Source: a virus
DNA: 34,582 nt
Direction: 5' to 3' (one strand)
IMG/VR virus record: IMGVR_UViG_3300002460_000091
Location: 1 to 34,582 of that record
Each line of letters starts with the position of its first letter. Position 1 is the first letter of the stretch. The notes under the pieces were generated by a model that was not told the origin of the DNA, ran no database searches, and saw only the letters and a list, made by a program, of their open reading frames with translations. Of this stretch, positions 3,912 through 34,582 are shown in pieces. Made by a program: the position numbers and the translations under genes.

Positions 3912-4708
3912 TTGAACTTGCCGCACCGCCAGCAATTATCAAGCCGGCAAATGGCCTCTGGAAACCTGCCGCGCCTGCGATTTTGCGGGGGAAAGACCTC
4001 ATATTCCCGCGAACCAACGCGATGTTGATGGTAAATCAGTTGATTGGGTTCGGGGTGGCGGCCGTTCCCAATATCGCTATACTGGAAAGTTTCGCTACGA
4101 CCGGATCAACCGGAACAACGACTAGAACCTTCACCAGCGTAACGGTCTCGGCCGCGCGGACGCACCTTCTGATCGGTGTGGCTAGTCGTGGCGACGGCGT
4201 AATCTCACAGATTACGTCGATGACGGCGAATGGCATATCGTGTACACAGATTGGCGAACAAGCGGCAGCAAGTGGCATCCAAAGTGTCGAGCTTTGGGCC
4301 GTTGCGGATGGTTCCGGCGGCACGTCGCTTTCGATCGTGGCGGTGTTTGACAATAATCCGGTCCGCGCAATCGGGATGGCTGGCGTATCGCTCACCGGGC
4401 TGCAAAGCCTCACGCCCACAAGCACGGGGGCGGACACCACGGACCCGCTTGCGACAACGGTGAACGTCGATATTGGTGGAGTAGCCTTCTACATTGCGTC
4501 TGCTTACGACAATGCGGGTGCCCCGCCTTTTACCCCTTCCGGGGTTTCAGAGATTGCAGACAGCGCGATGGCCGGTGCCTTCGGCACGTACAACGGATAT
4601 TCAGCCGGAGCTAGCGTCTTTGCGACGGCTCAATCGGGTCTTTCGATTGGTGCCGACCCGGTAGGAACGATCGGCGAGCCTACCTTCTTCGGGGCATCGT
4701 TCCGGTGA
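3908..4708 (+). CDS. Beta-rich tail or virion surface protein, 266 aa
   Basis: The start overlaps the preceding stop by 4 bases. The first 50 residues are Pro/Ala-rich (MIELAAPPAIIKPANGLWK). A beta-sandwich-like domain follows, containing TTTRTFTSVTVSAARTHLL, a recurrent motif of alphaproteobacterial phage and prophage surface proteins of unknown function. The rest alternates short strands and Gly/Ser/Thr loops. The last GC-rich gene of the 3010-4740 island, it is followed by about 70 bases with no visible signal. It is probably a decoration or tail-tip component. Confidence 0.65.
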   Translation: MIELAAPPAIIKPANGLWKPAAPAILRGKDLIFPRTNAMLMVNQLIGFGVAAVPNIAILESFATTGSTGTTTRTFTSVTVSAARTHLLIGVASRGDGVISQITSMTANGISCTQIGEQAAASGIQSVELWAVADGSGGTSLSIVAVFDNNPVRAIGMAGVSLTGLQSLTPTSTGADTTDPLATTVNVDIGGVAFYIASAYDNAGAPPFTPSGVSEIADSAMAGAFGTYNGYSAGASVFATAQSGLSIGADPVGTIGEPTFFGASFR

Positions 4709-33413: not shown

Positions 33414-33442
33414 TTGACAGGAGTTAATGACCTACCTATTGT
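33414..33442 (+). promoter_or_regulatory. Rightward promoter, predicted leaderless start
   Basis: TTGACA (33414-33419) is separated by 17 bases from TATTGT (33437-33442). The next ATG begins 8 bases after the -10 (33450), so the transcript would start at or within a base or two of the start codon. No ribosome site is visible upstream of this ATG. Confidence 0.6.
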
Positions 33443-33449
33443 AACCGCC

Positions 33450-33623
33450 ATGACAGCGAAGGTTCTACTTTCGGTTAAGATACCGCCTGAGCATTTGGTG
33501 GGGCTAGAGAAACTGGCGCTCAAGGATGACCGCCCACTGCCTGAATACGTTCGGGAGCTAATCCGTGGTCATTTGAGGACGGAACCCACTGTAGCGCCAC
33601 CGGAAGGTGAGGAAACACGCTAA
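33450..33623 (+). CDS. Ribbon-helix-helix regulator, 57 aa
   Basis: MTAKVLLSVKIPPEHLVGLE followed by LALKDDRPLPEYVRELIRGH has the strand-helix-helix pattern of Arc/CopG-type proteins; the C-terminal 12 residues are acidic and loose. I chose ATG 33450 since a TTG 36 bases earlier lies inside the -35. Position next to a divergent promoter with palindromes indicates an autoregulated repressor that controls the leftward operon, as lambda cI does from a leaderless transcript. No lysogeny genes are visible in the window. Confidence 0.7.
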   Translation: MTAKVLLSVKIPPEHLVGLEKLALKDDRPLPEYVRELIRGHLRTEPTVAPPEGEETR

Positions 33624-33641
33624 CCAATGGAGGCTTTAGGG

Positions 33642-33755
33642 GACTGTGGCGGCGTGGATGGACACGCAGGGAGAAGATCGGCAGCTTCGGCTTTGTATCT
33701 ACAACTCCCGTCCGTAGCCGGAATTCGGAGCCGGTATCAAGCCCGGCCCACAGTC
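33642..33755 (+). ncRNA. Candidate structured RNA with tRNA-like geometry
   Basis: GACTGTGG (33642-33649) pairs perfectly with CCACAGTC (33748-33755). Two bases after the 5' strand is a hairpin GCGTG-GATGGA-CACGC (33652-33667). GGGAG (33669-33673) pairs with CTCCC (33705-33709) around an inner AGC-TTCG-GCT hairpin. The last arm GCCGG-TATCAAGC-CCGGC (33730-33747) stacks directly on the closing stem. Layout recalls acceptor, D, anticodon-like, variable and T arms, but the 31-base central loop is not an anticodon loop, and alternative pairings exist (CGGCT/AGCCG). A 44-codon frame (33627-33761) spans it. Confidence 0.35.
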
Positions 33756-33757
33756 AC

Positions 33758-33770
33758 CTAGAGTCTCTAG
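33758..33770. promoter_or_regulatory. Palindrome CTAGAG-T-CTCTAG
   Basis: A perfect 6+1+6 inverted repeat lies 2 bases after the closing stem of the structured region and about 30 bases before the next start codon. It may be a regulatory site or the end of the RNA; no T-run follows. Confidence 0.35.
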
Positions 33771-33801: not shown

Positions 33802-34113
33802 ATGATCCGCCAAGGCGATGTTCTAATTGTTCCAGTGGAAGAAATTCCGGCCACTGCTGAAGTCGTTGAGCGCGAGAATAGTTGTATTATTCTTGCTCAT
33901 GGCGAGGCCACCGGCCACGCGCACAAGATCAAGGATCAGCACGCCGCGCTATTTCGTGACCCAAAACTCATGGCGGTTTTCTTACACGTTACAGGAAACG
34001 GAGTGGCTATTGAACATGACGAGCACGACACAATCATCGCGCCACCCGGTAAGCATCAGGTTATCCGCCAACGTGAATATTCCCCAGGGGCAATCCGCAA
34101 TGTCACAGACTGA
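33802..34113 (+). CDS. Conserved His-rich small protein, 103 aa
   Basis: ATG 33802 follows AAAGGGAGAACGCA. RQGDVLIVPVEEIPATAEVV, ILAHGEATGHAHKIKD, EHDEHDTIIAPPGKHQVIRQ and REYSPGAIRNVTD are motifs of a widespread family found in phages and bacterial genomes, function unknown. The protein is beta-rich with several histidines, as in small cupin-like barrels. It overlaps the start of the ARD-repeat gene. The pair occurs together in several phages as I recall, which suggests a joint role. Confidence 0.7.
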   Translation: MIRQGDVLIVPVEEIPATAEVVERENSCIILAHGEATGHAHKIKDQHAALFRDPKLMAVFLHVTGNGVAIEHDEHDTIIAPPGKHQVIRQREYSPGAIRNVTD

Positions 34114-34582
34114 CTTAGAACGCTACACCGAGGCATGTAACTATCCAGGTCAACTCAACGAGTCTGCTGTTGAGCGGCACTTACGAGAATATTTATTGGC
34201 GTTAGGCGTTGACCGAACGATTGTAAGACTGCGGCAGAATTGGACATTAGACGAGCACCCATCTTTGGCGCGGTCAATTGATGGGATAATAAAGAATTTT
34301 TCTAATCGGCTAACACCACCTCACGCTACCCGCGATGCCCGCGTTGCCCGCGTTGCCCGCATTGCCCGCGATGCCCGCGATGCCCGCGATGCCTGCGATG
34401 CCGTCGATGCCCGCGATGCCCGCGATGCTCGCGATGCCCGCGTTGCCCGCGATGCCCGCGATGCTCGCGATGCCCGCGATGCCGTCGATGCCCGCGATGC
34501 CGTCGATGCCCGCGATGCCCGCGATGCTCGCGTTGCCCGCATTGCCCGCGATGCCCGCGATGCCGTCGATGCCCGCGATGCC
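34100..34582 (+). CDS. Protein with tandem Ala-Arg-Asp repeats (partial)
   Basis: ATG 34100 overlaps the preceding stop by 14 bases. The unique N-terminal 77 residues (TDLERYTEACNYPGQLNESA, REYLLALGVDRTIVRLRQNW, SLARSIDGIIKNFSNRLT) are helical. From residue 78 the protein is a run of (R/C/V)-(D/V/I)-A triplets to the window edge, 28 units so far. The gene continues outside. Similar phage proteins have a short helical head followed by AR/DA-rich repeats, with unknown function. A long charged helix is the expected structure. Confidence 0.65.
   Translation, partial: MSQTDLERYTEACNYPGQLNESAVERHLREYLLALGVDRTIVRLRQNWTLDEHPSLARSIDGIIKNFSNRLTPPHATRDARVARVARIARDARDARDACDAVDARDARDARDARVARDARDARDARDAVDARDAVDARDARDARVARIARDARDAVDARDA
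34331..34582 (+). repeat. 28 tandem 9-bp repeats, unit CGCGATGCC
   Basis: The unit CGC GAT GCC recurs in frame without interruption to the window end, with variants GTT or ATT for GAT, GTC or TGC for CGC, and GCT for GCC. Larger blocks repeat too: the order GTT, ATT, GAT, GAT occurs near 34350 and near 34530. The array continues past the window. Confidence 0.9.

Follow-up and report, generated by a model that had tools for sequence, protein, structure and literature searches.

The region at positions 33642 to 33755 of the window, as we call the whole 34,582-nucleotide (nt) stretch of viral DNA analyzed here (positions 1 to 34,582 of the IMG/VR virus record IMGVR_UViG_3300002460_000091, which holds 37,587 bases), encodes on the plus strand a 114-nt RNA laid out like a transfer RNA (tRNA). 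There is very little doubt that this RNA belongs to a large and as yet undescribed family of structured RNAs encoded by phages, with a covarying scaffold whose consensus reads P1, C(G/A), a hairpin of five base pairs (bp) with the loop GANGGA, a variable middle, A, a second 5-bp hairpin with an 8-nt loop, and P1'. The RNA is most likely a stable trans-acting tRNA mimic that presents a swappable pseudoknot, and it probably serves as a decoy.

The minimum free energy (MFE) structure of 33642-33755 (-47 kcal/mol, z-score -2.69, with 1 of 200 dinucleotide shuffles folding equally well) recovered, at the same coordinates, the four arms in tRNA order that an earlier note on this DNA had proposed. 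All of the following parts lie on the plus strand. The acceptor-like closing stem P1 (5' strand GACTGTGG, 33642-33649; 3' strand CCACAGTC, 33748-33755) encloses the two-base linker CG (33650-33651), equivalent to tRNA positions 8-9, the D-arm-like hairpin P2 (GCGTG-GATGGA-CACGC, 33652-33667), a hypervariable middle that takes the place of the anticodon arm (33668-33728), a conserved A (33729), and the T-arm-like hairpin P4 (GCCGG-TATCAAGC-CCGGC with an 8-nt T-loop, 33730-33747), on which the 3' strand of P1 stacks directly. Within the middle, a GGGAG/CTCCC arm (33669-33673/33705-33709) closes a 31-nt loop that contains an AGC-TTCG-GCT hairpin (33683-33692). ARAGORN reported neither a tRNA nor a transfer-messenger RNA (tmRNA) in the window, Rfam 15 gave zero matches to the region even at E <= 10, and BLASTN of the RNA region against annotated phages found no match.

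A covariance model (R1) made from the single window sequence was run first over loci carrying homologues of the downstream RQGD gene (33802-34113, plus strand; phrog_27831, function unknown). It returned one relative, in locus L003 (positions 4387-4489, E 5e-4), whose closing stem (GGCAACAG/CTGTTGCC) is wholly different in sequence from that of the window and still complementary, and whose hairpin reads GCGTG-GATAGA-CACGC. Among up to 80 RQGD-homologue loci the RNA was present only in the window and L003, and none of the relatives of the window virion structural protein (phrog_3287, 44-63% identical) was accompanied by it. The search of viral contigs for the first hairpin as a DNA pattern (GCGTGGATNGACACGCAG) gave 57 loci, about 40 of which score E < 0.005 by R1; in these, the second hairpin (GCCGG-TATCAAGC-CCGGC or variants), which was outside the pattern, follows at least 45 nt downstream and is succeeded by the closing-stem complement. 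The reciprocal scan, with the second hairpin alone, yielded at least 120 loci, where the first hairpin keeps the loop GANGGA on stems as diverse as GCGTG/CACGC, GCACG/CGTGC, GCGCT/AGCGC, GTGTG/CACAC, CGGTG/CACCG, ATGCG/CGCAT and others. A GANGGA hairpin was found 40-330 nt upstream in 79 of the 113 distinct second-hairpin sites among the matches listed, against a background of 2.2%.

Parsing with a requirement for complementarity, which 3 of 6,960 random sites passed, resulted in 120 members at 118 loci from diverse phages and prophages, and the one-sequence model reaches family members at E values from 1e-3 to 1e-9. Pattern matches in portal genes (AAWMDTQ) and in mycobacteriophage tape-measure genes (AGIKPG) were rejected as coding sequence. 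Prophage copies were identified by genome scan in Acetobacter, Asaia, Komagataeibacter, Devosia, Sphingomonas, Novosphingobium and others; at E <= 0.001 the RNA occurred in 8 of 249 genomes of one such family and in 2 of 398 genomes phylum-wide, and this low prevalence indicates that it is accessory. Unannotated copies are also carried by six isolated phages, namely Pseudanabaena phage Pan3, Caulobacter phage DMCA, Myxococcus phage Mx1, Iodobacter phage PhiPLPE and Komagataeibacter phages phiKX1 and phiKX2. Mx1 gives the poorest match among the six (model E 0.2); its copy was accepted on the evidence of the closing stem (GATGTCAG/CTGACGTC), the hairpin and the position in a tRNA array. Two copies of the RNA each were observed in L127, L267 and genome G020. 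Our literature searches, which covered open-licence papers and a few preprints, retrieved no description of the RNA family.

The scaffold is maintained as structure rather than as sequence. In 48 distinct scaffolds, analyzed with the middle removed, 99.3% of the pairing cells were paired against 74.4% after shuffling, and two-sided changes were seen in 12 of 12 pairs, comprising the seven inner pairs of P1 and five of P2. The covariation score was 0.659, compared with 0.148 +/- 0.012 for shuffled and at most 0.10 for slid alignments. The pairing of P1 was a parsing criterion, and its 98.5% is therefore partly selected; P2 in members found via the T-arm, and the T-arm in members found via P2, were not searched as sequence. 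The P2 stem was paired in 80 of 80 members picked solely via the T-arm, the conserved A precedes the T-arm in 89 of 91 T-arm-selected members, and P4 is conserved though it lay outside the first search pattern. The linker is CG in 105 of the 120 members, CA in 13, CC in 1 and CT in 1. Of the stems listed in the earlier note, the closing stem and the D-arm-like and T-arm-like hairpins thus have comparative support, while the GGGAG/CTCCC arm and the TTCG (UUCG) hairpin are not conserved and are particular to the window phage, forming part of its cassette. That note had also named two observations that would count against the RNA, an absence of covarying pairs or conservation of the overlying 44-codon reading frame (33627-33761, plus strand) with broken stems; the pairs covary as described, and relatives preserve the pairs and not the sequence. 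The frame has no PHROG match and runs across a cassette unrelated to those of other members, and we judge it to be fortuitous.

The two loops also vary together. In tRNA, the elbow pairs the GG of the D-loop with the UC of the T-loop. The second loop of the family conforms to N-N-U-C-R-A-N-Y, a T-loop plus one extra first base, and in 29 members chosen blind to the T-loop, a UCRA T-loop accompanied 21 of 24 GATGGA D-loops and none of the five GATAGA or GATCGA loops (Fisher p = 4.7e-4), a co-change that a tRNA elbow contact would demand. This co-variation strongly supports a predicted tertiary contact by which D-loop and T-loop would interact as in the tRNA elbow. At the end of the molecule, NCCA is encoded in 3 of 120 members and an A directly follows P1' in 17 of the 22 members with a 7-bp P1. 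The detected length of P1 was 5-14 bp (14 being the search maximum), reaching 16-20 bp on extension in some members. Hairpins with a GANRRA hexaloop lie directly upstream of the long-P1 members L142, L161, L205 and L283, possibly as an outer scaffold of like style; with 5 seen where 0.5 were expected, they are too few to generalise.

The middle is as variable as the scaffold is constant, with a length of 45-309 nt (median 79.5) and no mutual similarity among 116 of the 120 middles. Loci L188, L243 and L257 share flanks that are 90-98% identical around three unrelated middles, whereas the close pairs L149/L155 and L170/L278 retain theirs, and for these reasons the middle is regarded as a cassette that is replaced and not one that drifts. 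The absence of an anticodon loop stated in the earlier note holds family-wide, and the 31-nt loop with its TTCG hairpin, rightly considered abnormal for a tRNA, represents in the window phage the insert that is different in almost all members. Pseudoknots in which one helix begins near the D-arm and the crossing helix ends at the T-arm were detected at a strict threshold in 26 of 109 cassettes, against 7.0 +/- 2.6 in shuffled sequences, and crossing-helix scores of the cassettes were raised in general. This enrichment strongly supports the prediction that the middle would often fold into a domain with a pseudoknot, its 3' helix lying against the T-arm. A helix enclosing the middle was seen in a minority of members only, and the motif search in cassettes showed enrichment limited to GNRA tetraloops and tRNA-arm words. 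The cassettes of L158 (Pan3), L228 and L250 contain segments that score 34.9-47.2 bits with the Rfam tRNA model, above its gathering score of 29 bits. These embedded tRNAs lie at 3058-3123 in L158, 3788-3858 (minus strand) in L228 and 3797-3866 in L250, and their anticodon regions appear degenerate by eye.

The genomic setting of the members suggests how the RNA would be produced. In 19 of 118 members, mostly those with a 7-bp P1, the -10 hexamer TAnnnT occurs exactly at position -12 relative to the outer P1 end, compared with 0-4 members at other positions; from a box so placed, a sigma-70-type promoter would start the RNA at the first base of P1. Promoter spacing of this precision strongly supports the view that many members would be discrete transcripts beginning at that base. 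In phiKX1, a terminator-like hairpin and T-run can be read about 20 nt past P1'. The RNA lies within a tRNA array and on the same strand in L144, L147 and Mx1, only 2 nt from a tRNA-Ser in L144, and about 120 nt after a tRNA-Met in phiKX1 and phiKX2; the array context strongly supports the expectation that members inside tRNA arrays would be freed by the tRNA-processing machinery. Clustering of neighbouring genes revealed no conserved gene, the largest shared family being terminase, near 9 of 118 loci, and across members the RNA adjoins unrelated genes on either strand.

Several of these features are shared with known RNAs. The arm order, the two-base linker, the D-arm/T-arm elbow (GG in the D-loop, UCRA in the T-loop), the stacking of the T-arm on an acceptor-like stem and the location of some members in tRNA arrays recall tRNA itself, from which the phage RNA differs in having a variable middle of 45-309 nt instead of the anticodon arm and its 7-nt loop, an 8-nt T-loop, a P1 that is not fixed at 7 bp, and a CCA that is rarely encoded. 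Species 1 RNA of phage T4 (rnaC) is likewise a stable RNA of unknown function beside a phage tRNA cluster, with a T-arm (CCGGG-TTCGAAT-CCCGG) near its 3' end and no anticodon arm, but it lacks the GANGGA hairpin after P1 and has an ordinary 7-nt T-loop, and cmsearch without filters on T4 gave no match at rnaC or rnaD. The bacterial Y RNA YrlA is a noncoding RNA that mimics the tRNA elbow, and its tRNA-like module is not closed by a stem of the 5' and 3' ends in the acceptor position. The phage RNA shares this elbow mimicry and, unlike YrlA, is closed by P1. tmRNA also joins a tRNA-like end to pseudoknots, whereas the phage RNA has a D-stem, is negative by ARAGORN and Rfam, and carries a middle too short and variable to expect a tag frame. 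The Rfam covariance models of GOLLD, ROOL, YrlA and tmRNA did not match the phage RNA. GOLLD and ROOL are phage-encoded, often near tRNA islands, and consist of a conserved and a variable half, sometimes with tRNAs inside (PMC12286853); the present family resembles them in being phage-encoded, in combining a conserved with a variable part and in some tRNA inserts, but most of its members measure 100-230 nt against about 800 nt in many GOLLD RNAs, and sequence and fold differ. A likeness between the T-loop and the twister ribozyme, and another between the D-arm and P2 of the purine riboswitch, were discarded, since other members do not keep the letters and Rfam was negative. In action the RNA would resemble a tRNA mimic, and as a family it is new.

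The analysis shows a free-standing gene for an RNA whose constant scaffold, formed by P1, the GANGGA D-arm-like hairpin and the UCRA T-arm stacked on P1, carries a swappable middle at the place of the anticodon arm. We propose that the elbow and the acceptor-like stack may stabilise the RNA and let host factors with affinity for tRNA elbows recognise it, and that the hypervariable pseudoknot would be the working part, acting in trans as a decoy or antagonist of RNA-binding or RNA-cleaving factors of the host or of rival phages, and an arms race may have selected for diversity and exchange of the cassettes. It is known that phage tRNAs work against defences that cleave tRNA (PMC11555353), and for an anticodon-free mimic that is rapidly replaced between phages this makes the decoy or antagonist reading the most economical. 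We assign a probability of roughly 40% to this explanation as a whole; the tRNA-like decoy suggested in the earlier note holds up, as a candidate function. A tentative extension, on which we place similar weight, is that the family may constitute a natural "tRNA scaffold" display system, in which functional inserts (pseudoknots, even whole anticodon-less tRNAs) are exchanged among phages within a constant tRNA-elbow frame, much as modular anti-defence genes are at the protein level.

A number of observations weigh against the decoy explanation. The nested-fold MFE of the cassettes showed a slight gain (mean z -0.46 against -0.11 for controls), so the middle may consist in part of filler under loose constraint, and no clear crossing helix or pseudoknot emerged in the window cassette itself. 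Given the variable length of P1, factors that bind the molecule would not have to treat it as a tRNA. Among all members, a tRNA lay within one kilobase in 8 cases against 4.1 expected, and in the window and L003 the RNA is located inside an operon, where it may have a cis role. The putative decoy role rests on tRNA mimicry and hypervariability, not on a known target.

Two of the alternatives rival it seriously. The stronger of them, though we regard it as unlikely, gives the scaffold a general role in stabilisation or assembly, as in GOLLD and ROOL: the RNA self-assembles, or protects or delivers cargo including tRNAs, and the middle is a linker that is tolerated and has no target. It would account for the tRNAs inside some cassettes, as in the GOLLD linker, and for the occurrence of both near tRNA islands (PMC12286853), for cassette MFE values just mildly better than shuffled, and for the RNA of L188 and L243, which is nested in a larger conserved noncoding region. 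A passive linker would not, however, need the pseudoknot enrichment or the complete turnover between near-identical flanks, and an RNA of about 100-230 nt is far below GOLLD and ROOL in size and has no Rfam match.

Bordetella phage IFTN2 has a counterpart of that larger region in which, as read by eye, another insert occupies the same point and a tRNA-Arg-like gene follows downstream. In Burkholderiales phages (L188, L243, L257, L303 and L304) this second noncoding region, larger and structured in appearance, lies close to a tRNA-Arg-like sequence; the inserts at one point of it are RNA of the window type in L188 and L243 and other hairpins in L257 and IFTN2. The Burkholderiales-2 RNA (RF02917) was found in the same phage contigs (L188 1542-1615 and L257 9017-9090, both on the minus strand).

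The second, more doubtful, is the view of the family as an RNA antitoxin or anti-abortive-infection RNA, whose pseudoknot binds a host toxin nuclease in the manner of type III ToxI, with one toxin for each cassette. The enrichment of pseudoknots together with the extreme diversity and exchange of the cassettes would fit such target-specific recognition, but no repeats like those of ToxI arrays were seen, no target toxin is known, and no cognate protein travels with the RNA according to the neighbour clustering, in which no dedicated toxin-family models were run.

A riboswitch-like or leader element controlling the downstream RQGD gene in cis, one form of the regulatory RNA suggested in the earlier note, is improbable. 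The window and L003 do share an arrangement with the RNA ahead of that gene; the cis role was dropped because L003 was the only one of up to 80 such loci to have the RNA. Elsewhere its neighbours are unrelated and on either strand, and many members have their own promoter at P1. Slightly less probable still is a DNA-level element, that is, a hairpin serving recombination, packaging or replication and not an RNA, which might be suggested by the nine loci upstream of or near terminase genes and by the recombinational look of cassette exchange, but which is at odds with the single-strand orientation, the G-U pairs, the promoters placed to the base, the tRNA-array location, the T-loop consensus and the functional-looking embedded tRNAs. 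The least probable reading is a decayed or atypical tRNA (tRNA-Sec-like or allo-tRNA), for despite the acceptor/T-arm stacking, the D and T loops, the array location and the A after a 7-bp P1, the anticodon arm is absent family-wide while the scaffold is maintained under strong purifying covariation, P1 ranges from 5 to more than 16 bp, ARAGORN is negative and NCCA is rare; decay, as considered in the earlier note, is excluded by a covarying family in 118 loci, and the 8+5 stacking likeness to tRNA-Sec and allo-tRNAs fails on the variable P1 and the missing anticodon arm.

Regarding the local setting, the RNA starts 18 nt past the stop of a small plus-strand gene (33414-33623; from the open reading frame list, ribbon-helix-helix-like by eye, unmatched in PHROG and Pfam), and 46 nt separate the RNA's 3' end from the RQGD gene, an order not found in members other than L003. 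The gene after RQGD contains an imperfect in-frame 9-base tandem repeat (GCCCGCGAT..., encoding RDA/VDA repeats; 34321-34582 and L011 1583-1604), whose length is unreliable as the record has 7 Ns within it, starting just past the window end; in L003, the gene at the equivalent position contains another repeat (GGGGACTCTGTCAGG...). Near the end of the virus record, an outer-membrane beta-barrel-like gene of bacterial look by eye (G000 35813-36625; L011 2814-3626) may mark a prophage boundary.

The finding bears on the old question of the role of non-tRNA stable RNAs in phage tRNA clusters, of which T4 species 1 is an example. Rfam 15 holds no model of the family and six sequenced phages carry it unannotated, which means that an entire class of phage RNAs has escaped notice. 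Moreover, in this family tRNA mimicry occurs apart from translation, and the inserts in its constant scaffold turn over to a degree that is extreme among structured RNAs. Should the inserts prove to be directed against tRNA-targeting or RNA-based immunity, phages would have in this family a store of anti-defence elements made of RNA.
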